A DNA stretch of 64,000 nt from Sulfurospirillum barnesii SES-3. Its GTDB lineage: Bacteria > Campylobacterota > Campylobacteria > Campylobacterales > Sulfurospirillaceae. Location of the stretch: positions 1,054,001 to 1,118,000 of the forward strand of contig NC_018002.1 in the NCBI RefSeq assembly GCF_000265295.1, written 5' to 3'. Under the pieces are notes generated by a model that saw only the letters and a list, made by a program, of their open reading frames with translations, searched no databases and was not told where the DNA came from. Positions 4,915 to 21,095 of this stretch are shown piece after piece; position 1 is the first letter of the stretch, and each line of letters begins with the position of its first letter. The position numbers and the translations under genes were made by a program.

Positions 4915-5655
4915 GTGAAATTTGAATTTTTAGGAACAGCCGATACAGGTGGAATTCCTCTGCATTTGTGTTCGTGTGCGGTGTGCGAAAAGGCACGTTT
5001 AGAAAAAACAACCAATCGCTCTACCAGTGCCTTTTTGGAGTTAGAAGATGGCAGTGTCATTTTATTTGATGCAGGGTGTGATACCTTAATGGATCGCTTT
5101 AATACAACACCCATTCGAGCGGTTTTTTTGACCCATTTTCATGCCGACCATGCTTTGGGATTGATTCGTTTACGCAAATCCGCACAAAAAGTGATTTGCT
5201 ACACACCCAATGATACAGAGGGCTTTGGGGATTTATTAGTGCATAAGAATAACATCGAGTACCGCATTTTAGCTCCCTTTGAAAAAGTGTGTGTTGGGGG
5301 TGTTGAGATTGTGGCGACACCTTTGCTTCATTCCAAAGCGACACACGGTTTTGTACTCTTTACATGTAACAAACGGGTGGCGTATTTGACCGATTGTGGA
5401 GGGATGAGCGAAGAGAGCCTTCTCTTTTTGAAAGCACAAAAACTGGATTATCTCTTTTTAGACGCTGCGTATACGCCTTCGTTTGATTCTGATAAACATC
5501 TGAATTGGGAGAGTGCACACACTTTGATTGAGCGTATCGCACCTAAAGAGGGCTACTTAATTCATGCCAGTTGCCACACCCTTTTAGGTGTTTTAAAAAA
5601 AGGTGTGAATTTAACGTATCCTTACATCGAGCAAGGATTTAGCATAGAGGTTTAA
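4915..5655 (+). CDS. PhnP-like metallo-beta-lactamase fold hydrolase
   Basis: A soluble MBL-fold hydrolase of about 246 residues, with THFHADHALGL as the zinc-binding motif, DAGCD upstream of it, and later His and Asp ligands (LLHSKATHG, LTDCGG). The N-terminal FLGTADTGGIPLH followed by CSCAVCEKAR matches the extra zinc-binding Cys cluster of PhnP, the phosphoribosyl cyclic phosphodiesterase family. No other phn genes are nearby, so the substrate is unknown. The GTG at 4915 with AAGGA upstream is the preferred start; a TTG at 4894 is the alternative. It abuts the convergent msrA gene with no spacer. Confidence 0.82.
   Translation: MKFEFLGTADTGGIPLHLCSCAVCEKARLEKTTNRSTSAFLELEDGSVILFDAGCDTLMDRFNTTPIRAVFLTHFHADHALGLIRLRKSAQKVICYTPNDTEGFGDLLVHKNNIEYRILAPFEKVCVGGVEIVATPLLHSKATHGFVLFTCNKRVAYLTDCGGMSEESLLFLKAQKLDYLFLDAAYTPSFDSDKHLNWESAHTLIERIAPKEGYLIHASCHTLLGVLKKGVNLTYPYIEQGFSIEV
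5360..5369. repeat. TTACATGTAA palindrome, copy 3
   Basis: Inside the PhnP-like gene, read as Phe-Thr-Cys-Asn in LFTCNKRV. Confidence 0.95.
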
Positions 5656-6297
5656 CTACTTAACAAAATCCTTCAACTCACGCTTAAAATGTTCCACTTT
5701 TGGAGAGACGACAAACATGCAATAGCCTTGATTGGGGTTATTTTTAAAGTAGTCTTGATGGTAGGCTTCTGCTTTGTAAAAGTGTTCCAAAGGCTTTATT
5801 TCAGTGACAATGGGTTTAGTGAATTTTGCACTAAAGATTTTAAGCGAGGTTTGTGCTTTTTCTTTTTGCATCTCATCGTGGTAAAAGATGGCAGAACGGT
5901 ACTGTGTTCCTACATCGTTTCCTTGTGCATTAAGACTGGTTGGGTCGTGAATGAGCCAGAAAATTTTTAAAATCTCTTCATAGGAAATAATGGAAGCATC
6001 ATAGGTGATTTGTACTACTTCTGCATGTCCTGTGTTGCCACGACTTACCGCTTCGTAGGTAGGATGAGAGCTCTGCCCTCCCGTATAACCACTCACCACA
6101 TCAAGGACACCTCGTGTCTCTTCAAAGACCGCTTCCAAGCACCAAAAACATCCGCCACCAAGCGTTGCCATCTCTTTCTTCATAGCGTTATCCTTTGCGT
6201 GTAGTGAAACATGAAACAGAGTAAAAGAGAAAAAAACTAAAAGAAGAACGTGCCATGTATGAGAGAAGAAGAGGTGAGGGGTGAAGTTATTCTTCAT
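5656..6297 (-). CDS. msrA: peptide methionine sulfoxide reductase MsrA, exported
   Basis: MsrA reduces methionine-S-sulfoxide in proteins. The catalytic motif GGGCFWC is present, followed by the family pattern VVSGYTGG, NTGHAEVV and DVGTQYRSAIF. I start at the ATG at 6297, which gives an N-terminus with a hydrophobic signal segment (VLLLVFFSFTLFHVSLHA) and a plausible signal-peptidase site, so the enzyme is probably periplasmic. The frame is open further upstream, but that part is the antiparallel low-complexity shadow of the acidic protein gene. The start overlaps the 3' end of that gene by 11 bp, suggesting translational coupling. Confidence 0.9.
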   Translation of the reverse strand: MKNNFTPHLFFSHTWHVLLLVFFSFTLFHVSLHAKDNAMKKEMATLGGGCFWCLEAVFEETRGVLDVVSGYTGGQSSHPTYEAVSRGNTGHAEVVQITYDASIISYEEILKIFWLIHDPTSLNAQGNDVGTQYRSAIFYHDEMQKEKAQTSLKIFSAKFTKPIVTEIKPLEHFYKAEAYHQDYFKNNPNQGYCMFVVSPKVEHFKRELKDFVK

Positions 6298-6589
6298 CCT
6301 CATCTTCTTCGTACGCTTCTTCACCATCTTCATCTTCAAAATAGATGTGCTCTTCGTTTCCATCGTAGTTATAATCACTTTGATAAATCGGATCATCTTC
6401 CTCGTCATCATCAAATTCATCCTCATCATCGAGTTCTTCTTCGTAATCATCTTCATTCATTAAAATCTCTTCAACTTTGTCCATAAACGCATCAATATCG
6501 CCGTTAAAGAGTTTTTCATAGCGCATTGCATCCAAAATAAATTCACTTGAACACCCGCTTTCTAAAAGAAGTTCTTTTAAATCAGCCAT
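6287..6589 (-). CDS. small protein with a highly acidic tail, unknown function
   Basis: A 100-residue protein. The first half (MADLKELLLESGCSSEFILDAMRYEKLF...) looks like a short helical domain. From about residue 45 onward it is almost only Asp, Glu and Tyr with few other residues, ending in EEDEDEE. I do not recognise a family. Acidic tails of this kind occur in nucleic-acid mimics, chaperone-like and metal-binding proteins, but no assignment is made. msrA overlaps its 3' end and the ABC-F gene precedes it with a 37-bp gap. Confidence 0.75.
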   Translation of the reverse strand: MADLKELLLESGCSSEFILDAMRYEKLFNGDIDAFMDKVEEILMNEDDYEEELDDEDEFDDDEEDDPIYQSDYNYDGNEEHIYFEDEDGEEAYEEDEDEE

Positions 6590-6626
6590 AACCTACCTTT
6601 GTTTTTTTTCGAATTTTACACTAATT

Positions 6627-8453
6627 TTAGATGTTTTTCAATTGCATTTCATAGCTTTCAAAAAGCTCATCGTGCTTTACATGTAAAGATTCAAATTGTT
6701 CATAAAGCCCATTTAAAGTCTCTTCATCGCTTTTTAGTTCTTTAGAGAGTCTTTGCAATTCTCCAAGATCATTGCCCGAAGCAATCTGTATTAGGGTTTC
6801 ATTTTTGGTTTTGATTGTCTCTTCAAGCTGCATAATCTTTGCTTCACATTTTTCTATCTCTTTTTTAAGTGGAGAGAGTTTGGCACTGCGTTCTTGAATC
6901 AGTTTCGTGCGTAGTTTTTTACTTTCGTTGTAGTCACTTTGTGCCACTTTTTTAGACGGGGCATCACTCTCTTCCTCCCAGCCAATTTTTTCTAAAAATG
7001 CTTCGTAGCCTCCATCAAAGAATTCTGCTTTATCGTGGTGAAAAATAATAAGCGCATCGGCTAAGTTTTTAAGCATCATCTCTGAGTGCGTCACTAAAAT
7101 GGTAGAGCCCTCAAAACTTTGAATCGCCTGTGTAAGCGCATCAATGGAGTACATATCAAGGTGGTTGGTTGGTTCATCCAAAAAGAGAAGATTGGCAGGT
7201 GTGGCAATGATTTTACCAAGCATGACACGGCTTCTCTCACCTCCTGAGAGAACAGAAATCTCTTTTTCCGCACTTTTGCCTGAAAACATCATTCCTCCAC
7301 AAATGGAGCGCACTTTGGTAATGCCTAAGAGTGGATCAACCTCATAAATTTCATCAATGATGGTATGTTTCAGGTTGAGTCTTTGAATGTTGGTTTGTCC
7401 AAAATGAGCAATAGCTGTTTCAGGATGAAAGGCAATATTGCCTTGTTGTAGAGGCAATTCGCCTGCTAAAACATTTAACAGGGTTGACTTTCCCTTACCA
7501 TTTTTTCCAATAATCGCAAGGCATTTACCTTTTTCAAGCTTGAATGAGAGATTTTGAAAGAGCGGCTTTTTTGCATCGTATCCAAAGCCAATGTTTTGCG
7601 CATCTAAAATAATTTTAGCAGGTGTTTTTTTGTAGTTAAAGGCAAAAGAGAGGCTACTTTCTTCCTCCAAATCATCCATTTCGCCCATTTTTTCAAGCTG
7701 TTTAGCTTTACTTTGTGCCATCACCGCTTTGGAAGCTTTGGCTTTTTGACGGGTAATAAAATCTTCTAGCTCAGCACGCTTTTTATCCAAATTGGCTTTG
7801 GTTTTAAGATAGCGCTCATCGTCTTCTTCAAGTTTGGCGTAGTACTTGCTACTGTTCCCCTCAATGAGGAGTAGGCTTTTGCGTCTAAGACCCATCGTGT
7901 GCGTCGTGACCGCATCCATAAAATCTCTATCGTGGGTGATAAGAATAAGCTCACCCTTAAACTCTTTAAGAAACTGTTTTAACCAACGCATGGAGACAAT
8001 GTCCAAATAGTTGGTCGGCTCATCCAAAAGAAGCATCGAAGGGTTTGTTGCTAGGAGTTTTACAAGGTTGAGTCTGATTTGATACCCACCTGAAAAGCTC
8101 AGAGGATCTTTGTCTAAATCTTCGTGGCTAAAACCCAGTCCAAAAAGCATTTTTTCAATGATATAAACATTAAATGCTTCATCACCATGCAGGGCTGAAG
8201 CACACTCTTCACGGACGGTTTTATGGGTAAAATGAAGGTGCTGACGTAGGGTGCCAATGGTATAGTTTTTAGGAATAAAAACTTCACCACTGTCGGCTTC
8301 TTCTTCACCTAAAAGAATTTTAAACAGGGTGGATTTCCCTGAACCATTACGTCCAACAAGGCCTATTTTATTGCCTCTATTAAGCGTAAAACTGATGTTT
8401 TCAAAAAGGGTTTGTTCTCCAAAATGTTTAGAGAGGTTGGTAACTTGAATCAT
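6627..8453 (-). CDS. ABC-F family ATPase
   Basis: A 608-residue soluble protein with two ABC domains in one chain and no membrane segments, which is the ABC-F architecture (ribosome-associated translation factors such as Uup, YheS and EttA). Walker A motifs are GRNGSGKST near residue 36 and GKNGKGKST near 317. Signature motifs are FSGGYQIRL and LSGGERSRV, and both Walker B sites are followed by EPTN. A charged linker lies between the domains and a long Lys/Glu-rich coiled coil forms the C-terminus, most like Uup/YheS. The exact subfamily is not decided. Confidence 0.9.
   Translation of the reverse strand: MIQVTNLSKHFGEQTLFENISFTLNRGNKIGLVGRNGSGKSTLFKILLGEEEADSGEVFIPKNYTIGTLRQHLHFTHKTVREECASALHGDEAFNVYIIEKMLFGLGFSHEDLDKDPLSFSGGYQIRLNLVKLLATNPSMLLLDEPTNYLDIVSMRWLKQFLKEFKGELILITHDRDFMDAVTTHTMGLRRKSLLLIEGNSSKYYAKLEEDDERYLKTKANLDKKRAELEDFITRQKAKASKAVMAQSKAKQLEKMGEMDDLEEESSLSFAFNYKKTPAKIILDAQNIGFGYDAKKPLFQNLSFKLEKGKCLAIIGKNGKGKSTLLNVLAGELPLQQGNIAFHPETAIAHFGQTNIQRLNLKHTIIDEIYEVDPLLGITKVRSICGGMMFSGKSAEKEISVLSGGERSRVMLGKIIATPANLLFLDEPTNHLDMYSIDALTQAIQSFEGSTILVTHSEMMLKNLADALIIFHHDKAEFFDGGYEAFLEKIGWEEESDAPSKKVAQSDYNESKKLRTKLIQERSAKLSPLKKEIEKCEAKIMQLEETIKTKNETLIQIASGNDLGELQRLSKELKSDEETLNGLYEQFESLHVKHDELFESYEMQLKNI
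6676..6687. repeat. TTTACATGTAAA palindrome, copy 4
   Basis: In the C-terminal coiled-coil part of the ABC-F gene, read as SLHVKHD. It has the full 14-bp form with C and G flanks. Confidence 0.95.
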
Positions 8454-11016: not shown

Positions 11017-11035
11017 CAATTAAATGGAGTTTAAC

Positions 11036-12193
11036 ATGCTAGAAAGAAAAACGTATTTACGTTACATAAGTTATATGGTTGTTATGAGTTTAGGTGCGTT
11101 GAGTTTTAGTGGGTGCACACAAGAGTCAAAAAGTGCCCAAGCTTCTCATGCAATGCCCCCCTTAAGTGTTATGAGCTATAAAGTTGCTACTTCGGATATT
11201 CCTGTTGCTTTAGAGTACCCTGCGAAAGTTAAAAGCATTCAGCATGTCAATGTGGTTGCCCGTGTGAATGGTATTTTAGAGCAGAAATATTTTATGGAAG
11301 GAAGTTTTGTTAAAGCAGGCGATATGCTCTACCAAATCGACTTTGAGCGCTATGAAGCCCTTATGCAAGAAGCCGCTGCTGATGTGGGGGTGAAAGAAGC
11401 GACCTTAAAAGAAGCTACCCGTAATTGGGAGAGGGTTAAAGTGTTATTTGAACAAGACGCTGTTTCGCAAAAAGAGCGTGATAATGCCCTCTCAGCGTTT
11501 GAGTCGGCTAGTGCTTCCTTAAAAGCATCCCAAGCGACCCTGAAAAAAGCGACCATTGATTTTAATTATACAAAGGTAAAAGCACCTATTTCAGGACTTA
11601 CTAGCCTTAATACTCAAGACATTGGCAGTTATGTGGGTTCTAGCAGTGATACGATGACATTAACGACAATTACGCAAATGGACCCTATGTATGTTGAGTT
11701 TTCACTCTCTGATATTGAGATGTTAAAAAAACGCTATGTGTTACCAACGGCGAATTGGAACAGTATTGAAAAGGCAAAATTGCCTGTGACTCTTAGCACA
11801 CCTGATGGTTCAACGTATGAGCATCAAGGGACGTTAGACTTTTTAGATAACCGTGTGGATGAGCAAACCTCCACCATAAAAGCCAGAGCAACGTTTGCTA
11901 ATCCAAAGCATCTGCTCATTCCTGGTCTTTTTGTGCGTGTTAATGTGGGCGGATTGGTCTATAAAGATGCCATTAGTGTGCCTCAAGAAGCGGTTTTACA
12001 AGACGCCACAGGTTCATTCGTCTATCTTGCCAAAGAGGGTAAAGCGCATAAAGTACCTGTTAAAATAGGAACGGTGCATAATGCGAGGTATGTTATTGAA
12101 GATGGTTTACATGTAAACGATGTCGTGATTACCAATTACCTTACAAAAATTCGTCCAGGCTCTGCCATTACGCTTGCAGAAGCAAAGGAATAA
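11036..12193 (+). CDS. cmeA: RND efflux periplasmic adaptor (CmeA/AcrA-like)
   Basis: A membrane fusion protein linking the inner-membrane pump to the outer-membrane channel. The N-terminus is a lipoprotein signal with the lipobox LSFSGC. It is followed by the lipoyl half-motifs (VVARVNGILEQKYFMEGSFVKAGDMLYQID), a coiled-coil hairpin at about residues 100-170, the second lipoyl half (TKVKAPISGL) and the beta-barrel and membrane-proximal domains. The ATG at 11036 is 6 bp after TGGAG. It is the first gene of a tight three-gene operon. Confidence 0.93.
   Translation: MLERKTYLRYISYMVVMSLGALSFSGCTQESKSAQASHAMPPLSVMSYKVATSDIPVALEYPAKVKSIQHVNVVARVNGILEQKYFMEGSFVKAGDMLYQIDFERYEALMQEAAADVGVKEATLKEATRNWERVKVLFEQDAVSQKERDNALSAFESASASLKASQATLKKATIDFNYTKVKAPISGLTSLNTQDIGSYVGSSSDTMTLTTITQMDPMYVEFSLSDIEMLKKRYVLPTANWNSIEKAKLPVTLSTPDGSTYEHQGTLDFLDNRVDEQTSTIKARATFANPKHLLIPGLFVRVNVGGLVYKDAISVPQEAVLQDATGSFVYLAKEGKAHKVPVKIGTVHNARYVIEDGLHVNDVVITNYLTKIRPGSAITLAEAKE
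12106..12117. repeat. TTTACATGTAAA palindrome, copy 7
   Basis: Near the 3' end of cmeA, read as GLHVNDV. Its flanks are G and C, so the palindrome extends to 14 bp with a different outer pair. Confidence 0.95.
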
Positions 12194-12196
12194 ACG

Positions 12197-15100
12197 ATGT
12201 TTTCAAAATTCTTTATCAACAGACCCATTTTTGCAACTGTACTCTCTATTGTTGTGATTATTGCGGGGCTGATGAGTATTCATGCCCTTCCGATTGAAGA
12301 GTATCCAGAAGTGACTCCACCGCAAGTCAGCGTTGATGCAAGCTATGTGGGTGCGAGTGCGGAGACCATTTCAAAAACTGTAGCAGCGCCGTTGGAGCAA
12401 CAAATTAACGGTGTTGAAGATATGATTTATATGTCTTCTACGGCTTCTTCAACAGGTTCTTTAACCATTAATATTTATTTTAAAATTGGTACCGATCCTG
12501 ATCAAGCGACGATTAACGTCAACAACCGTGTTCAAGCCGCACTCAATAAATTACCCAGTGAGGTACAAGCACAAGGGGTAACGGTTACTAAACAGTCTTC
12601 TACCATCTTAAAAGTAATTTCCATTATTTCGCCCAATAACAGCTACGATGAAATTTACATGGCAAACTATGCTTTGATTAATGTTATTGATGAGTTAAAA
12701 CGGATTCAAGGTGTGGGGGATGCAGGTCTTTTTGGCAATAAAAACTATTCTATGCGTGTGTGGATGAAACCTGATCAATTATCAAAATACGGTTTTACAC
12801 CCACAGATGTGATTAATGCTATCTCTGAGCAAAACGCACAGTTTGCCACTGGACGCTTCAATCAATCTCCCTCTAAAACGTCACAAGCCTACACCTTTAC
12901 TGTGACCACCCAAGGGCGGTTTGATAAGGTGGAAGAGTTTGAAAATATTATTTTAAAATCCAACAGTGATGGTTCAACCCTTCGTTTAAAAGATGTTGCA
13001 AGGGTCGAATTGGGCGCAGAATCATACGATGTTACTTCTACGCTTAATGGGCAAACCATGGTGCCTATTGGTATCTATTTGCAATCTGGTGCTAACGCAC
13101 TTGATACCGCTCAAAGAGTCGATGAAGCTATGGAAAAACTCTCTAAATCATTTCCTGAAAATATGGAGTATCGTATACCGTACGATACGACAAAGTTCAT
13201 TCAAATTTCGGTTCATGAGGTTATTAAAACCTTTATTGAAGCACTGTTGCTCGTTATAGCTATTGTGTATCTTTTCTTGCAAAATATGCGTGCAACGATT
13301 ATCCCTGTTCTTGCCATTCCCGTTTCTATTATTGGTACGTTTGCAGGAATGTACGCTTTTGGCTTTTCCATTAACCTTTTGACCCTCTTTGGTTTGGTGC
13401 TTGCCATTGGTATTGTTGTGGATGATGCGATTATTGTTATTGAAAATGTGGAGCGTATTTTACATTCTCAAAAAGATATTTCCGTTAAAGATGCGACCAT
13501 CCAAGCGATGCAAGAAGTGACAGGTCCTGTGGTTGCAATTGTGTTGGTGTTGTGCGCCGTGTTTATTCCTGTTTCGTTTATGGGTGGTTTTACGGGACAA
13601 ATGTACCAACAATTTGCCATTACGATTGTTATTTCCGTGATTATTTCAGGAATGGTGGCATTGACATTGACACCTGCATTGTGTGCTATTTTCTTAACCA
13701 AAAAAGAGCTAAAACCTTTTTGGTTTGTACGAAAATTTAATGAATTTTTTGATGCTTCAACCAACTGGTTCACAAGTGGTGTAAGTTTAGTGGTACGCCA
13801 TAGTATCATCAGTCTTATTGTCTTTGCTGCATTGATGGGAATGACGTATGGTCTTTTCCAAAAAGTACCCTCAAGCCTTGTTCCTATGGAAGATAAAGGG
13901 TATTTAATTGCCATTACAGCACTGCCTCCTGCCGCCTCTTTGTACCGTACCCAAGGGGTGAGTGCGCAAGTCAATGAAATTACAAAAAAGATGCCAGACA
14001 TTGAGTATAACCTTGCTATTTCAGGGTTTGATCTTTTAAGTGGTGCCGCAAAAACCAATACCGCTACTACCTTTTTACCGCTACAAGATTGGAGTGAGCG
14101 ACAAGCGCCTAATCAGCATTCACAAGCGATTAGTGGAGCCTTAAATGGGGCACTCTTTGGTGTGGCAGACGCAACGATTTTTGCACTCAATCCTCCTCCT
14201 ATTATGGGTCTTAGTATCTCAGGTGGTTTTGAGATGTATTTACAAGATAGAACAGGAGGTTCACTGGAAGTACTCGGTGAATTGGCCGATGCCATTGTCG
14301 CCAAAGCCAATCAGCGACCTGAGCTTATGATGGTAAGAAACTCTTTAAATATGAAAATTCCTCAGTACAAAGTAAGTTTGGACAGAGAAAAAGCCAAAGC
14401 CCTAGGTGTTTCGATTAATGATGCGTTTAAAACCATGCAAGCAACCTTTGGAGCTTACTATGTCAATGACTTTAACCTTTTTGGACGTACCTATCAAGTG
14501 AATGTCCAATCTGAAGCTGATTTTAGGGAGAAACCAGAAGATTTAAAAAATGTTTTTGTGAAATCAGCCAATGGCAGCCTCATACCTCTTAGTGCCTTAG
14601 TACAGTATGAACGCACGGTTGGTGCGGATCTTATTGAACGCTTTAACGTCTTTGCCGCTGCTAAAATTGAAGGGGAGCCAAAACCAGGGTATAGCTCTGG
14701 GGATGCACTAAGAGCTATTGAAGAAGTGGTCAAAGAAGTTGCACCTGAGGGATATGGTGTTGCATGGGCAGGAACATCTTTCCAAGAAAAAGAGATGAGT
14801 GGCAGTGGTTCACAAGCGTTTATCTTTGGTATTATCTTTATTTTCTTAATCCTCGCAGCACAGTATGAAAGATGGTTGATGCCACTTGCTGTTGTTACAT
14901 CTGTACCCTTTGCGGTTTTTGGTGCGATTATGGCGGTGTATTTACGAGGACTCAGCAATGATATCTACTTCCAAATTGGTCTGTTGGTCTTAATTGGTCT
15001 CTCAGCTAAAAATGCCATTTTAATTGTTGAGTTTGCGATGCAAGCCCAAGAGAGAGGCAAGTCTATTTTTGATGCAACGCTTGAAGCAGCACGCCTTCGC

Positions 15101-15325
15101 TTCCGCCCGATTGTTATGACATCGCTTGCATTTACCATTGGTGTTTTACCACTCGCCCTTAGCTCAGGTGCAGGTGCTGGAAGTCGTCATGCGATTGGTA
15201 CGGGTGTTATTGGAGGGATGATTGCCGCAACGACCATTGCGATTTTCTTTATTCCTCTTTTTTACAATTTATTAGCCAAACTCAATGCAAAATTTACGAC
15301 AAAAGGAGAGCCTCATGATGCGTAA
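12197..15325 (+). CDS. cmeB: RND efflux inner-membrane pump (CmeB/AcrB-like)
   Basis: A 1042-residue proton-driven multidrug pump of the HAE1 family. The N-terminus FINRPIFATVLSIVVIIAGLMSIHALPIEEYPEVTPP is diagnostic. Helix 4 carries the proton-relay Asp pair in GIVVDDAIIVIENVER near residue 405, and helix 10 has the conserved Lys in LSAKNAILIVEFA near 935. Two large periplasmic loops (about 40-330 and 560-860) form the porter and docking domains. It starts 3 bp after cmeA and its end overlaps cmeC. Confidence 0.95.
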   Translation: MFSKFFINRPIFATVLSIVVIIAGLMSIHALPIEEYPEVTPPQVSVDASYVGASAETISKTVAAPLEQQINGVEDMIYMSSTASSTGSLTINIYFKIGTDPDQATINVNNRVQAALNKLPSEVQAQGVTVTKQSSTILKVISIISPNNSYDEIYMANYALINVIDELKRIQGVGDAGLFGNKNYSMRVWMKPDQLSKYGFTPTDVINAISEQNAQFATGRFNQSPSKTSQAYTFTVTTQGRFDKVEEFENIILKSNSDGSTLRLKDVARVELGAESYDVTSTLNGQTMVPIGIYLQSGANALDTAQRVDEAMEKLSKSFPENMEYRIPYDTTKFIQISVHEVIKTFIEALLLVIAIVYLFLQNMRATIIPVLAIPVSIIGTFAGMYAFGFSINLLTLFGLVLAIGIVVDDAIIVIENVERILHSQKDISVKDATIQAMQEVTGPVVAIVLVLCAVFIPVSFMGGFTGQMYQQFAITIVISVIISGMVALTLTPALCAIFLTKKELKPFWFVRKFNEFFDASTNWFTSGVSLVVRHSIISLIVFAALMGMTYGLFQKVPSSLVPMEDKGYLIAITALPPAASLYRTQGVSAQVNEITKKMPDIEYNLAISGFDLLSGAAKTNTATTFLPLQDWSERQAPNQHSQAISGALNGALFGVADATIFALNPPPIMGLSISGGFEMYLQDRTGGSLEVLGELADAIVAKANQRPELMMVRNSLNMKIPQYKVSLDREKAKALGVSINDAFKTMQATFGAYYVNDFNLFGRTYQVNVQSEADFREKPEDLKNVFVKSANGSLIPLSALVQYERTVGADLIERFNVFAAAKIEGEPKPGYSSGDALRAIEEVVKEVAPEGYGVAWAGTSFQEKEMSGSGSQAFIFGIIFIFLILAAQYERWLMPLAVVTSVPFAVFGAIMAVYLRGLSNDIYFQIGLLVLIGLSAKNAILIVEFAMQAQERGKSIFDATLEAARLRFRPIVMTSLAFTIGVLPLALSSGAGAGSRHAIGTGVIGGMIAATTIAIFFIPLFYNLLAKLNAKFTTKGEPHDA

Positions 15326-16739
15326 TTTTTATGCCCTCTCATTATCCGTTTTAGTGTTTGGGGGATGTTCACTCTCTCCTGAGCTTAGCCTTCCTACAAC
15401 ACCGTTTCCTGAGAGCTATCGTGCCGATATGAAAAGTGAAACCACTGCGCTTAATACGGCATGGTGGAGTCATTATGGTGATGAGAAACTCAATGGTTTA
15501 ATCCAAGAGGCATTTGCCAATAACTATGACCTCCAATCTGCCATGGTCAATATCTCGCTAGCACGTGCAACGCTTTCAAGCAGTACTTCCAACCGCTATC
15601 CTAGCCTTGATGTGGAGGGAAGTGGCAGGAAGTATCGAAGCAGTGCGGATACCTTTAGTTCCAATGAGCATAACACGTATAACAGCTTTGGAATAAGTGC
15701 GGTGCTCAGTTATGAGCTTGACTTATGGGGTAAATACAAAGAAGCAGAAACCTCTTCAAGAGCTTCACTCATTGCAAGTTATGCTGCCAAAGAGACCGTT
15801 AAAATCTCGCTAGCAGCCAGTGTGGCAGAGAGTTACTTTACACTCATTAGTCTGTATGAACAGCTAGACAGCGTGAAAGAGACCATTCAATCACGTGAAG
15901 AGGGTTTAAAGCGTTATGCTGTTCAGTACCAAGCAGGCTCTATTACTAAAGCGACCCTTTTGCAAGAAGAAGCCGAGCTTAGAAGTGCGCAAATTAGCAA
16001 AGATAGCCTAGAACAGTCCATTGTGACACAACAAAGCGCACTAGCTGTGCTCGTGGGTAAATCGCCTAAAGAGATTGCTGAGTTTGCTAAAACAAGTCTG
16101 CCTAGAGTGCTTCCAAATGACATTACTGTGCCATCAAATTTACCCTCAGAACTTTTACAAAATCGTCCTGATATAAAACAAGCTGAGGAAAATCTTAAAG
16201 CCGCTAATGCCAATATTGGTGTGGCACGTTCTGCTTATTTTCCAAGTATTAGTCTCTCAGGTGTTTTAGGCTATGAGAGCACGCAACTCTCTAATTTGGT
16301 CAGTTCTCGTTCCGCCATGCATAACTTTGGTGGAAGCGTGGCGTCTCCTTTGTTTAACATGGGAAGAACGAGCTCCAGTGTTGAGAGTGCTAAAGCCAAT
16401 AAAGAGTTAGCAGAAATTAGCTATGCGCAAACGGTGCAAAAAGCGTTTCAAGAGAGTTATGATGCACTCAATTCTCGTCATATTTTAAGCACTAAACTTG
16501 AACACCAAAAAGCTTACCTTGATAGCATGGCACAAGTCTTTGTGCTTACCAAACGACAGTATGAGGCAGGGTATGGGGATTATTTAGCGCTTTTAGATGC
16601 TAAACGCAACTATTTATCTGCTCAATTAGCCTTGATTCAAGTGAAACAAGCTCTGCTTAGCTCAAGTGTTTCTTTATACAAAGCCCTCGGTGGTGGCTTT
16701 GATACAGAGCGTTTTAGCAAAGAAACATCCGCTCTTTAA
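15315..16739 (+). CDS. cmeC: RND efflux outer-membrane channel (CmeC/OprM-like)
   Basis: A TolC-fold outer-membrane lipoprotein of about 474 residues. The signal sequence ends in the lipobox VFGGC at about residue 17. Two OEP repeats follow, each with long helices (for example LARATLSSSTSNRYPSLDVEG and AEENLKAANANIGVARSAYFPSISLSG). The start ATGATG at 15315 lies 5 bp after GGAGAG and overlaps the end of cmeB by 11 bp; the frame is open earlier but inside cmeB. It completes the tripartite pump. Confidence 0.93.
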   Translation: MMRNFYALSLSVLVFGGCSLSPELSLPTTPFPESYRADMKSETTALNTAWWSHYGDEKLNGLIQEAFANNYDLQSAMVNISLARATLSSSTSNRYPSLDVEGSGRKYRSSADTFSSNEHNTYNSFGISAVLSYELDLWGKYKEAETSSRASLIASYAAKETVKISLAASVAESYFTLISLYEQLDSVKETIQSREEGLKRYAVQYQAGSITKATLLQEEAELRSAQISKDSLEQSIVTQQSALAVLVGKSPKEIAEFAKTSLPRVLPNDITVPSNLPSELLQNRPDIKQAEENLKAANANIGVARSAYFPSISLSGVLGYESTQLSNLVSSRSAMHNFGGSVASPLFNMGRTSSSVESAKANKELAEISYAQTVQKAFQESYDALNSRHILSTKLEHQKAYLDSMAQVFVLTKRQYEAGYGDYLALLDAKRNYLSAQLALIQVKQALLSSSVSLYKALGGGFDTERFSKETSAL

Positions 16740-16742
16740 CCG

Positions 16743-16752
16743 TTACATGTAA
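16743..16752. repeat. TTACATGTAA palindrome, copy 8
   Basis: Begins 3 bp after the cmeC stop codon, in the gap before the AraC gene. Confidence 0.95.
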
Positions 16753-16810
16753 AGCTTCTTGCACGAAGGTGTCAGAGGCTTTACTCCCTCATGTTTTATC
16801 ATAACAGTGT

Positions 16811-16844
16811 AGAATTAGGCAACCATTTTGGAGAATATATCTAG
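16811..16844 (+). promoter_or_regulatory. candidate AraC-type binding element upstream of the AraC gene
   Basis: AGAATTAGGCAA, 18 bp, CTAG. The same 12-mer and CTAG at the same spacing lie upstream of the alcohol dehydrogenase (19072-19105, minus strand), with 25 of 34 positions identical. A second AGAAT starts 21 bp after the first, the two-turn spacing typical of AraC half-sites. The element ends 20 bp before a TATAAT box. Confidence 0.65.
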
Positions 16845-16864
16845 CGTTAATGCGCATTTATCTC

Positions 16865-16870
16865 TATAAT
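16865..16870 (+). promoter_or_regulatory. -10 box of the AraC gene
   Basis: Consensus TATAAT 30 bp before the start codon. The expected -35 position falls at the end of the shared 34-bp element, so an activator bound there could contact RNA polymerase. Confidence 0.55.
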
Positions 16871-16900
16871 AAAAGCTTACTTGTAAAAAGGAGTAATACG

Positions 16901-17803
16901 ATGGATGAAGCGATTGAAAAGTGTCGTTTAGAGGTGATTGATGTCATTGATAGGCTCTATCCTCACTGCAATGAGAGTGTTCAAAGCAAGATAGCGCCTC
17001 TTAGTTTTTATCTAGCATCCTCTCCGAGTGAATTTAAAAGCATTGTGTATGAACCTTCCCTTTGTTTGATTTTACAAGGCTCTAAAGCGGTAGGGTTTGG
17101 ACATGAGATGTATCATTATCGAGAAAACGAGTATCTTTTAGCCTCAACGCATATCCCAGCGGATGTTAAGATTATTGAAGCCTCTACACAAAAGCCGTAT
17201 CGAGGGCTAACACTAACCTTTAGTTTAGAGGCGATTTATGAGGTGCTTAAACGTGTCCATCCTATTAAACTAAAATGTGAACATAAATCCGAAAAAGGAC
17301 TCTTTTTTGATACCTTACATGTAAAGCTTTATGAACCCATTGCAAGGCTTGTGAAGCTTTTAGAACGCCCACAAGAGGAGATTGATTTTCTCTCACCACT
17401 GATTATGAAAGAGATTTTGTTTACGCTCATCAACGATAAAAGTGGCTATTTTCTCAATAAATTTGCGATGGAGGGTACGACTTCCAATAAAATCGTCAAA
17501 GCCATTTCAGAAATCAAAAACAACTTTAATGAAAAGCTCAACATGGTAGAACTTGCCAAGCATATCGATATGAGCGAGTCGCATTTGTATCAAAATTTTA
17601 AAACCATCACTTCCCTCTCTCCACTGCAATTTCAAAAAAAACTGCGCCTTGAAGAAGCCAAAAAGATGCTAAGTGTTCGTAAAATTGACATCTCTGAGGT
17701 GGCATTTTTAGTCGGTTATGAGAGTCCATCACAATTTAGCAGAGAGTACGCTCGTATGTTTGGCATGCCTCCTAAAGAGCATCTCAAACAGTTACACGCC
17801 TAA
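16901..17803 (+). CDS. AraC-family regulator, YqhC-like
   Basis: A 300-residue regulator. Residues 20-170 match the AraC_N-type cupin domain found in YqhC (SFYLASSPSEFKSIVYEPSLCLILQGSKAV). The C-terminal 100 residues form a double helix-turn-helix (KLNMVELAKHIDMSESHLYQNFK and DISEVAFLVGYESPSQFSREYARMFG). The ATG at 16901 follows AGGAG by 7 bp. It faces an iron alcohol dehydrogenase gene across a shared terminator. In E. coli YqhC activates the aldehyde reductase gene yqhD, and the shared upstream element suggests the same relation here. Confidence 0.88.
   Translation: MDEAIEKCRLEVIDVIDRLYPHCNESVQSKIAPLSFYLASSPSEFKSIVYEPSLCLILQGSKAVGFGHEMYHYRENEYLLASTHIPADVKIIEASTQKPYRGLTLTFSLEAIYEVLKRVHPIKLKCEHKSEKGLFFDTLHVKLYEPIARLVKLLERPQEEIDFLSPLIMKEILFTLINDKSGYFLNKFAMEGTTSNKIVKAISEIKNNFNEKLNMVELAKHIDMSESHLYQNFKTITSLSPLQFQKKLRLEEAKKMLSVRKIDISEVAFLVGYESPSQFSREYARMFGMPPKEHLKQLHA
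17315..17324. repeat. TTACATGTAA palindrome, copy 9
   Basis: Inside the AraC gene, in the linker after the cupin domain, read as TLHVKLYE. Confidence 0.95.
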
Positions 17804-17836
17804 AATCTATTTTTTGGAGGAATAGGCATCTGCATA

Positions 17837-17861
17837 ACGATGGCATTGTAAATGCCATCGT
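17837..17861. terminator. bidirectional terminator between AraC and alcohol dehydrogenase genes
   Basis: A perfect 11-bp stem (ACGATGGCATT, loop GTA, AATGCCATCGT) lies in the middle of the 66-bp gap between the two convergent genes. T-runs are short on both sides. Confidence 0.7.
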
Positions 17862-17869
17862 CTTAAAGA

Positions 17870-19018
17870 TTATAAAGCATTTTTGAGAATTTCAGCAATG
17901 ACCTCTTTAGTATAAACTTTTTCCATTCCAAAATAGTGGGCGTTATCGACAGCATTTTCGATAATTACAGGAAGTGATTTTTCTTCAATTCCATACTCTG
18001 AAAATTTCGTTGGTGTACCAATTTTTCTAAACCATGCCTCCAGCGCCTCTATGCCTTCTTCAGCACTTTTTTGTCCAAAAATGGTTGTGGCAAAACGAGT
18101 AAATTGCGTTTCATTGTATTGGCGATACCACTTCATCCACGCAGGCATCACAATCGAAAGCCCCGCACCATGAGGAATATTGCACATAGCGGAGATGGCA
18201 TGTTCTATCATGTGATTTGGAAAACCAATGCCCGCAACACCCACATGCGTTAAGCCGTTTAAAGCACACGTAGCCGCCCATGCAAATTCGCCCCTTGCCT
18301 CATCATCGTTTGGATTTTCTAGAAGCTTCTCTGTGGTCTCCATCACGGTTGTAATAATCACTTCAATCTGCTTACTGATAAAGAGAGGATGCGTCGTTGC
18401 CGTAAAATAGCCCTCAATACAGTGTGCAATCACATCAGAAGCCGAATAGACCAAATACTCTTTGCTCACACTGCTTTGAAGTTGAGGGTTGATGATAGAG
18501 ACTTTTGGGAAGAGTGCGGGTGCTTGAATAAAATACTTTTGATGCGTTGCATCGTTAGTAATGACCGCTCCATGGTTCATCTCACTGCCTGTGGCGGCAA
18601 GCGTGATAATATCAAAAATGGGCAATGCTTTTTCAACCGTTGCTTTGCCTAAGAAAAAATCCCACACATCATTCTCTGTGAGCGCACCTGCGGCAATGGC
18701 TTTGGAACTATCCAACACCGAACCACCACCAACTGCCAAAATGGCATCGACGTTGTGCGCTTTGGCAACGCTGATACCCTCATAGACTTTAGAGAGCAGA
18801 GGATTGCTCACGATACCGCCTAATTCAACAAAAGCAATGTTGTGTGCCTTAAGACTCGCTGCGACCGTGTCAAACAGTCCATCTTTTTTAATACGCTCAC
18901 TTCCATAGGCAAGTAACACTTTTTTAATGCCATTTGCTTCTAAGTGCTTGCCTATTTCTTTTTCTTTATCTATCCCAAACTCAATGCGTGTTGGGTTCCA
19001 AAAAGTGAAATTTTCCAT
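17870..19018 (-). CDS. iron-containing alcohol dehydrogenase, YqhD/BDH-like
   Basis: A 382-residue NAD(P)-dependent group III alcohol dehydrogenase or aldehyde reductase. The N-terminus MENFTFWNPTRIEFG is characteristic of the YqhD/butanol dehydrogenase group. The nucleotide-binding motif is AVGGGSVLDSSKAIAAG. The metal ligands are an Asp in SASDVIAHCIEGY and histidines in the later NHMIEHAISAMCNIPHGAGLS segment. It probably detoxifies reactive aldehydes or supports fermentative redox balance; the substrate is not determined. It faces the YqhC-like regulator and has a matching upstream element. Confidence 0.92.
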   Translation of the reverse strand: MENFTFWNPTRIEFGIDKEKEIGKHLEANGIKKVLLAYGSERIKKDGLFDTVAASLKAHNIAFVELGGIVSNPLLSKVYEGISVAKAHNVDAILAVGGGSVLDSSKAIAAGALTENDVWDFFLGKATVEKALPIFDIITLAATGSEMNHGAVITNDATHQKYFIQAPALFPKVSIINPQLQSSVSKEYLVYSASDVIAHCIEGYFTATTHPLFISKQIEVIITTVMETTEKLLENPNDDEARGEFAWAATCALNGLTHVGVAGIGFPNHMIEHAISAMCNIPHGAGLSIVMPAWMKWYRQYNETQFTRFATTIFGQKSAEEGIEALEAWFRKIGTPTKFSEYGIEEKSLPVIIENAVDNAHYFGMEKVYTKEVIAEILKNAL

Positions 19019-19044
19019 GTTTTTTCCTTGAATGTATTTGGGGT

Positions 19045-19050
19045 ATTATA
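19045..19050 (-). promoter_or_regulatory. -10 box of the alcohol dehydrogenase gene
   Basis: TATAAT on the minus strand, 26 bp before the start codon and 21 bp downstream of the shared regulatory element, the same geometry as at the AraC gene. Confidence 0.6.
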
Positions 19051-19071
19051 GAATGAAAAGGGCATAAACCC

Positions 19072-19105
19072 CTAGACCAATTATCTGAAAAATTTGCCTA
19101 ATTCT
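19072..19105 (-). promoter_or_regulatory. candidate AraC-type binding element upstream of the alcohol dehydrogenase
   Basis: On the minus strand AGAATTAGGCAA, 18 bp, CTAG, matching the element upstream of the AraC gene in sequence, spacing and distance to the -10 box. The preceding bases TTTTGG also occur before the second AGAAT of the AraC-gene element. Confidence 0.65.
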
Positions 19106-19116
19106 CCAAAACGATG

Positions 19117-19126
19117 TTACATGTAA
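19117..19126. repeat. TTACATGTAA palindrome, copy 10
   Basis: Between the alcohol dehydrogenase promoter element and the stop codon of the DUF4130 gene. Confidence 0.95.
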
Positions 19127-19131
19127 AGAGT

Positions 19132-19866
19132 TTACGCTTGAAATTCACTCATATACGTACGGTACAAAAGAGGCACTAAGTTCTTTTGCAGTTTGGGATT
19201 GTGTCTACTTTGAATAGCCGTGGCTTTAAAAAAGCGTTTCCACAGCTCTTTGACATGGGCTTCGTTTTGGGAGTAGATAGGTGCATCAAAAGAGGCAATG
19301 GAGTGAATCTGCATAGAACTTTCATCTTTCATCAAAGCCAAAGAGCGTCTCACATCGTGAATAATAAAAGGAATTTTGCCTAAGCGTTTGAAAAAATGCT
19401 CTCCTAAAAAAGGCAAAATGTTAAATTTTGTCTCGATTTTTGCGTAGAGTGTGCCATCTTCTAGCTCTTCAAAACGGGTGAAGCCGTACATTTTATGTAC
19501 CAAAGAGAGCAGTTCTTTTTCTAGGTTTTGAATGTAAAAAAGATGTGGATTGGTGATATTTCCAAGAAGTCTAGTGTTTTTAAATCCAGTGCGAATGTAC
19601 TCTAAAAGGGAACGTTCATGTGCTTTAGTGTCGCATAAAAAGATGTTAAAAATGGTGCGTTGGTTTTCTTTACTGAAGTGCTTTTTTAGAGCATTTAAGA
19701 CTTTGCTAGCTTTTACGTCATCACTAAAGACTTCATGAACGCTCTCAAACACCAACCTCTCAGGCATTTTCTTGATAATAGCGCTTACATGTAACTTTGC
19801 ATAGTACACTTCATACACCAGCGTTAAAAACCCCTCAAAACTCCCATCGTAGAACACTACCATCAC
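19132..19866 (-). CDS. DUF4130 protein (TIGR03915-type), putative DNA metabolism
   Basis: A 244-residue protein of the family described as radical-SAM-linked, probable DNA metabolism protein. It begins with the family pattern VVFYDGSFEGFLTLVYEVYY and contains VRRSLALMKDESSMQIHSIASFDAPIY and LWKRFFKATAIQSRHNPKLQKNLVP, with Arg-His-Asn-Pro near the end. In many bacteria this domain is fused to a uracil-DNA glycosylase-like domain, which is absent here: the protein ends at the DUF4130 boundary. Its start overlaps the radical SAM gene stop by 4 bp. Function is inferred only from family context. Confidence 0.82.
   Translation of the reverse strand: MMVVFYDGSFEGFLTLVYEVYYAKLHVSAIIKKMPERLVFESVHEVFSDDVKASKVLNALKKHFSKENQRTIFNIFLCDTKAHERSLLEYIRTGFKNTRLLGNITNPHLFYIQNLEKELLSLVHKMYGFTRFEELEDGTLYAKIETKFNILPFLGEHFFKRLGKIPFIIHDVRRSLALMKDESSMQIHSIASFDAPIYSQNEAHVKELWKRFFKATAIQSRHNPKLQKNLVPLLYRTYMSEFQA
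19785..19794. repeat. TTACATGTAA palindrome, copy 11
   Basis: Near the 5' end of the DUF4130 gene, read as KLHVSAI. Confidence 0.95.
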
Positions 19867-21095
19867 AGCTCTCCCGTGTAAATAGACGTATCAAACAATG
19901 TGGGTTGAATAATATCGCCTCCTTGATGAATAAGGGCAAGTTTGAGTCGTTCTTCATAGAGGTGTGAAGCTCTGTAATAATCACTCCCTGCAACGATGAA
20001 ATAGCGTGATTTTTTGAGCGAAATTTTAAGCTGTGTAAGGTCTTCAAAGCTAAGTTTTTTAAACCGTCTGGCTTGTAAAATTTTTAGGATACTTCGAATG
20101 CCAAGCCCTGGAATGCGAATCATCACCTCTTTGGGTGCGGTGTTGATGTCGATGGGAAAAAAGTCTAAATGGCGCAGTGCCCAGAAGGTTTTGGGGTCAA
20201 ACTGCATGTCTAAGTTTTCATTTTCGTTTAAAATTTCATCGTACGAAAAGCCATAAAAGCGAAGTAACCAATCGGCTTGATAGAGCCTGTGTTCTCGAAG
20301 CAGGGGCGGTTTTGTAAGCTCTGGAACGGGAAGGTTTTTATGGTGATTGACCGCAATGTACGCCGAGTAATAGACCCGCTTTAACAGCGCTTTTTGGTAC
20401 AAGGAGGAAGAGAGTTTTAAGATGTCAAAATCGCTCTCACTGCTTGCTCCCACAATCATCTGTGTGCTCATCGAAATAGGCTTATTATGACGCTCTAGGC
20501 TGATGTCACGCGCATGTTTGAGAGGTGAGAGAAGCTTCTCTTTGCTTTTATCGGGGGCTAAAAGAGCGAGACTTTTAGCACTGGGAAGTTCGATGTTGGA
20601 GCTCACACGATTGGCTAAAAGAGTAGCTTCGTGAATCAGCTCTTTGGAGCTTCCAGGGATGAGTTTGACATGAATATAGCCGTTAAAGCGGTACTCATGG
20701 CGCAAAATACGCAAGGTTTGTAACAGCAGACTCATGGTGTGGTCTTCGTTTTTAATAATGCCAGAGCTTAAAAAAAGCCCCTCAATGTAGTTGCGTTTGT
20801 AAAAAGAGATGGTAAGTTCCGCCAATTCTCGTGGACTAAAAGCGGTGCGAGGTGTGTCGTTGCTCACACGGTTGATGCAGTAGGCACAGTCGTAAATGCA
20901 GATGTTTGAGAGTAAGACTTTTAAGAGCGATATACACCTGCCATCGCTGGTAAAACTGTGGCAAATCCCGCTGTTATGGGTTGAACCTAACTCACCTGTT
21001 TTATGGTTGTTCTCACTGCCACTTGAGGAGCAGGAGACATCGTATTTGGCGCTGTCGGCTAAAAGGGTGAGTTTGTCGGTCACGGTCATTTTCAT
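19863..21095 (-). CDS. radical SAM protein, putative DNA modification/repair (TIGR03916-type)
   Basis: A 410-residue radical SAM protein. The iron-sulfur motif is CIYDCAYC (Cys66, Cys70, Cys73). Further family marks are ISMSTQMIVGASSESDFDIL and YYSAYIAV, and a C-terminal helix-hairpin-helix region (IDINTAPKEVMIRIPGLGIRSILKIL) suggests DNA contact. A polar N-terminus with CSSSGS and GICHSF precedes the core, as in this family. It is translationally coupled to the DUF4130 gene. The reaction has not been established as far as I know. Confidence 0.85.
   Translation of the reverse strand: MKMTVTDKLTLLADSAKYDVSCSSSGSENNHKTGELGSTHNSGICHSFTSDGRCISLLKVLLSNICIYDCAYCINRVSNDTPRTAFSPRELAELTISFYKRNYIEGLFLSSGIIKNEDHTMSLLLQTLRILRHEYRFNGYIHVKLIPGSSKELIHEATLLANRVSSNIELPSAKSLALLAPDKSKEKLLSPLKHARDISLERHNKPISMSTQMIVGASSESDFDILKLSSSLYQKALLKRVYYSAYIAVNHHKNLPVPELTKPPLLREHRLYQADWLLRFYGFSYDEILNENENLDMQFDPKTFWALRHLDFFPIDINTAPKEVMIRIPGLGIRSILKILQARRFKKLSFEDLTQLKISLKKSRYFIVAGSDYYRASHLYEERLKLALIHQGGDIIQPTLFDTSIYTGEL

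Follow-up and report, generated by a model that had tools for sequence, protein, structure and literature searches.

A predicted direct-repeat operator shared by an AraC_N-type regulator gene and an iron-containing alcohol dehydrogenase gene in Sulfurospirillum barnesii

Introduction

In Sulfurospirillum barnesii SES-3, the genes for an AraC-family regulator and an iron-containing alcohol dehydrogenase stand tail to tail, and each is preceded by a copy of the same DNA element. Which protein reads this element, and to what end? We analyzed the surrounding window (a stretch of 64,000 nucleotides), the whole genome and related genomes, and predict with considerable confidence that the adjacent AraC_N-type activator uses the element, 38 bp in full, as its operator. 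A sequence-only reading had already described the element; its sequence and site stand, while the 21-bp direct repeat within it, the match in Escherichia coli and a relic third site had been overlooked.

Two exact copies at two promoters

The pattern AGAATTAGGCAA-N18-CTAG occurs exactly at 16811-16844 on the forward strand and 19072-19105 on the reverse strand of the window, where dinucleotide shuffles lead one to expect 0 matches. The two copies agree at 25 of 34 bases by direct count, and they are the only zero-mismatch matches in the 2,510,109-bp genome, the next best having 2 mismatches; both coordinates and identity are those given by the earlier reading, as is the TATAAT box 20 bp (AraC gene) or 21 bp (dehydrogenase gene) past each copy. 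Conservation reaches 4 bp farther upstream (TTTG), which extends the element to about 38 bp (Table 1). A regulator start at 16901, rather than 16850, agrees with the promoter and the ribosome site. Genome-wide scans by pattern rather than by matrix gave no convincing further operator, and a 19.9-bit match at another locus (L004), considered as an extra operator, looks like chance.

Table 1. Features of the regulator-dehydrogenase locus (window coordinates)
Feature	Position	Strand	Details
Predicted operator 1, autoregulation	16807..16844	+	GTGT AGAATTAGGCAA CCATTTTGG AGAATATATCTAG; 40.8 bits
Operator 1 half-sites	about 16807-16823 and 16828-16844	+	offset 21 bp
-35 of AraC promoter		+	TAGCGT; poor; spacer 17
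-10 box, AraC promoter	16865..16870	+	TATAAT; starts 20 bp past operator
AraC-family regulator	16901..17803	+	PF06719 AraC_N and two HTH
Relic of a predicted third operator	17813..17832	+	TTTGG AGGAATAGGCATCTG; upstream half only
Iron-containing alcohol dehydrogenase	17870..19018	-	butanol dehydrogenase/YugJ/YqhD superfamily
-10 box, dehydrogenase promoter	19045..19050	-	TATAAT; 21 bp past operator
Predicted operator 2, dehydrogenase promoter	19072..19109	-	TTGG AGAATTAGGCAA ATTTTTCAG ATAATTGGTCTAG; half-sites offset 21 bp; 44.8 bits

The window also holds 32 copies of another sequence, TTACATGTAA (extended form CTTTACATGTAAAG), with 0.1 expected; examples lie at 16743-16752, 17315-17324 and 19117-19126, and 24 of the 32 fall inside ORFs. 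There are 1230 copies genome-wide against 6 for the reversed control; genomes of the genus hold 49 to 1496 each, and the sister genus (g2) has few. This sequence looks like a highly iterated palindrome.

A head-to-tail repeat placed against the -35 position

When 42 non-redundant Campylobacterota copies are aligned, a 38-bp consensus emerges that runs from element position -4 to 33: TTTGnAGAATTAGGCAA, 4 bases, and then TnTGnAkAATTnTTCTA. The element is thus composed of two 17-bp half-sites arranged head to tail at an offset of 21 bp, at which half-site identity is 0.53, compared with 0.18-0.35 at other offsets (column permutation p 6.5e-5). A -10 box was sought 17 to 24 bp past the element, and for 50 of 53 instances it lies at 20 or 21 bp. 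A 17-bp spacer would put the start of the -35 at positions 32-33, touching the proximal half-site. This -35 is poor: 35 of the 42 copies share only 0-2 bases with the hexamer TTGACA, and TATAAT is perfect in 33 of the 42. In the AraC system, araI1-I2 is likewise built of head-to-tail 17-bp half-sites spaced by 21 bp, the downstream half lying against the -35; the Sulfurospirillum element shows each of these features. By analogy with araI1-I2, the promoter geometry is that of an activator acting in place of the -35.

A site touching the -35 region is also compatible with a repressor, in which case the AraC protein would block polymerase until an aldehyde frees the promoter. However, a near-absent -35 is typical of activator-dependent promoters, and the homologous regulator YqhC, which has the same promoter geometry, is an activator (PMC5297802); we regard repression as improbable. 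Activation is the preferred reading, and the earlier proposal of an activator site over the -35 of both genes is strongly supported by the fixed -10 distance, the weak -35, strict co-occurrence with the regulator family and a copy in the yqhD promoter.

Co-occurrence with PF06719 proteins across the family

We scanned 44 genomes of the same family with the degenerate pattern AGRAWTAGGCAW-N17-YCTA, without using gene positions, and obtained 40 matches compared with 0 for the reversed control. Of the 22 genomes that have a PF06719 protein, 19 carry the element; of the 22 that lack one, 0 do (Fisher 2e-9). Within the genus the counts are 16 of 18 with and 0 of 6 without (p 2e-4), although these p-values are optimistic because the genomes are related. 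The element is thus kept upstream in related strains, a point on which the earlier reading had staked its claim. Dehydrogenase orthologues in three regulator-free genomes (G010, G019, G034) have no element. In two regulator-bearing genomes, neither the regulator nor the dehydrogenase has a good element nearby; one of these genomes (G017) has only a 19.5-bit site, the other being G038.

These counts bear on two further explanations. Some other global regulator could read the element, or it could be a promoter feature unrelated to its AraC neighbor; about 19 AraC-like candidates were found in this genome at first look. Yet only one of its proteins belongs to PF06719, no PF06719-free family genome carries the element although most still show AraC-like candidates (again at first look), and the element follows the PF06719 regulator into other phyla, which leaves this explanation very improbable. 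The two copies could also descend from one promoter duplicated locally and recently, free of functional constraint, as their proximity and 25/34 identity would allow. However, the spacer has diverged between them and the core has not, both copies are separately retained in relatives whose regulators are 69-97% identical, and the family-wide counts contradict it; we give duplication next to no credence.

The genes that start shortly past an element encode the dehydrogenase (21), a hydrolase (11), the regulator itself (9) and cupins (2). Others encode aldo/keto reductases, FMN reductases, flavodoxins, a zinc dehydrogenase, a short-chain dehydrogenase, a [2Fe-2S] aldehyde-oxidase-type subunit, a luciferase-like oxidoreductase, a CxxCxxCC protein and a quinone-reductase-like flavoprotein. 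Their common theme is the redox chemistry of small carbonyl and quinone-like compounds. The operator assignment could be right and the signal something other than aldehydes, such as quinones, nitro compounds or general redox stress: FMN reductases, flavodoxins, the quinone-reductase-like flavoprotein, the cupin and the luciferase-like oxidoreductase fit such a signal, even as they stand beside aldo/keto reductases and dehydrogenases. In contrast, the sole enzyme target in this genome is a dehydrogenase of the aldehyde-reductase type, and aldehydes are what E. coli YqhC answers (PMC6115493). A non-aldehyde signal is possible but less likely; aldehyde induction, suggested by the targets and by E. 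coli, is the reading we follow.

A probable third operator reduced to a relic

At three loci of close relatives (L009, L010 and L020), a third full element lies directly past the regulator gene and is followed by genes for an alpha/beta hydrolase and an MFS transporter. About 2.7 kb of the first of these (4929-7660) is absent from the window, and the alpha/beta hydrolase is not found in this genome. The hydrolase also occurs in relatives farther away, so the simplest explanation is that this lineage lost the hydrolase and transporter genes by deletion. What remains at 17813-17854 is a deletion scar, comprising a half operator and a terminator-like hairpin past the dehydrogenase gene. In Campylobacter showae CC57C, the regulator orthologue is apparently split into two ORFs (L014, 3941-4846), and the locus retains an element along with the adjoining hydrolase and dehydrogenase genes.

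The regulator and the dehydrogenase

The regulator belongs to the AraC_N class, with 133.1 bits for PF06719 (cut-off 24.2) and 75.5 bits for HTH_18. Its AlphaFold model (seven sequences, pLDDT 74) combines a beta-barrel domain with a helical DNA-binding part, and structural matches include ToxT, Rns and AraC. Orthology with YqhC would call for high identity and divergent yqhD-dkgA linkage, and here identity is 29%, the genes are tail to tail and no dkgA lies between them; the same operator, though, is found in the target promoter. By sequence, the regulator is a PF06719 family relative of YqhC, with orthology not established. An invariant cysteine was considered as its aldehyde sensor and rejected, none being common to the regulator and YqhC. 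Directly upstream of the regulator, in this genome as in close relatives, lies an RND efflux operon (11024-16739; adaptor, pump and NodT-type outer membrane protein), and no operator of the 38-bp type precedes it in the window.

The dehydrogenase scores above cut-off for PF00465 (148 bits) and PF25137 (114.6 bits), which places it among iron-containing alcohol dehydrogenases, and its D, H, H, H metal-ligand positions align by eye with those of YqhD. It is 33% identical to YqhD, and the YqhD subfamily model (NF011717/PRK15138), still its best NCBIfam match, gives 214.6 bits against a curated cut-off of 645. Among solved structures, the closest relatives are butanol dehydrogenase 1vlj (376 bits), 7w9x (279 bits) and 6l1k (261 bits), compared with 172 bits for YqhD 1oj7; for the first three, no PF06719-type regulator is described in the literature covered. 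These scores place the enzyme nearer to butanol dehydrogenase/YugJ-type enzymes than to YqhD. It is a probable aldehyde reductase, and a carbonyl or aldehyde substrate is a guess because of that nearness to butanol dehydrogenase. Of the earlier label "YqhC/YqhD-like", then, the logic and the operator hold and the sequence likeness does not (29% and 33% identity, with the YqhD cut-off failed): the pair works like YqhC/YqhD without being shown to be YqhC/YqhD. Adjoining the dehydrogenase gene is an overlapping TIGR03915/TIGR03916 pair (19132-21095), a putative DNA repair protein and its radical SAM partner.

The element in the E. coli yqhD promoter and in other phyla

The E. coli yqhC-yqhD spacer, whose yqhD promoter is a known target of activation by YqhC, contains AGAAATAGGCAAGACATTGGCAGAAATGAGCATT, with N21 and then the -10 CACAAT. 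A matrix built from Campylobacterota alone scores this site at 24.7 bits, compared with at most 5.5 in shuffles, and it too is a 21-bp direct repeat (AGAAATAGGCAA / AGAAATGAGCAT, 9 of 12 equal). The element is the best conserved spacer block in the yqhD promoters of Salmonella, Klebsiella and Aeromonas. Mutating a SoxS-like target in the yqhD promoter reportedly abolished YqhC binding, according to the abstract of Lee 2010, and that target may overlap the E. coli copy of the element. The -35 and -10 of the E. coli promoter have been assigned (PMC6115493), and genomic SELEX located a single YqhC site in the yqhC-yqhD spacer (PMC8249747).

We also considered 16 plasmid-borne loci with PF06719-type regulators from Bacillota, Cyanobacteriota, alphaproteobacteria and gammaproteobacteria, some of them related rhizobia. 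At 13 of the 16, the best match per 6.9 kb falls in the divergent promoter (binomial 3.5e-20), counted by position and not by score, some scores being low. Because the weight matrix includes the second half-site, it partly selects for the repeat seen outside Campylobacterota. Since E. coli has a near-identical site at yqhD, and related regulators of several phyla have one next to them, the element appears to be an ancient and widespread control code and no local oddity. PF06719 regulators probably use one frozen code, two half-sites of the type TTTGnAGRATTAGGCAA placed 21 bp apart against the -35, in at least four phyla (Campylobacterota, Pseudomonadota, Bacillota and Cyanobacteriota), with target enzymes varying freely within carbonyl/redox families. 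We found no description of a family-wide PF06719 operator in the open literature, most subscription journals lying outside its scope. The GliR motif (PMC8151288) is different and GC-rich.

Proposed mechanism and significance

In the mechanism we propose, the signal would be a reactive aldehyde or a related electrophile. Two regulator subunits, or a dimer, would bind both half-sites head to tail, strongly at the distal one and more weakly at the proximal one, exactly two helical turns (21 bp) apart. As the proximal half-site touches the -35 position, and the promoters pair a perfect -10 with almost no -35, the bound and activated regulator would replace the -35 and recruit RNA polymerase (class II activation). 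The output would be more regulator and more iron alcohol dehydrogenase, which would reduce toxic carbonyls.

A predicted operator is now available for a large and mostly unstudied AraC subfamily, PF06719, whose regulator targets could be read from sequence alone, and an uncharacterized Campylobacterota dehydrogenase is linked to a putative aldehyde-type stress response. The motif also indicates the likely contacts of YqhC in the E. coli yqhD promoter, which serves as an aldehyde biosensor. If the frozen code is true, one motif would predict the regulon of the whole family, including that of the known but poorly mapped YqhC.

Comparison with known systems

The element shares the repeat layout of araI1-I2, while the sequence is unrelated and the ligand differs; a distant looping half-site, as the AraC system has, was not found in the window. 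CmrA of Pseudomonas aeruginosa (PA2047), likened here by description only, is also an AraC-type regulator with an electrophile response in the literature. E. coli YqhC/yqhD-dkgA shares PF06719, the 34-38-bp operator, the 21-bp direct repeat, the -10 distance and a target that is an aldehyde-reducing iron alcohol dehydrogenase (here a probable one). The proximal half-site ends in GAGCAT in E. coli and in a TTCTA-like sequence in Sulfurospirillum. As the earlier reading noted, gene arrangement also differs: in E. coli, regulator and target diverge around one site, whereas in Sulfurospirillum the two stand tail to tail and each has its own site, and the regulator is therefore probably autoactivated.
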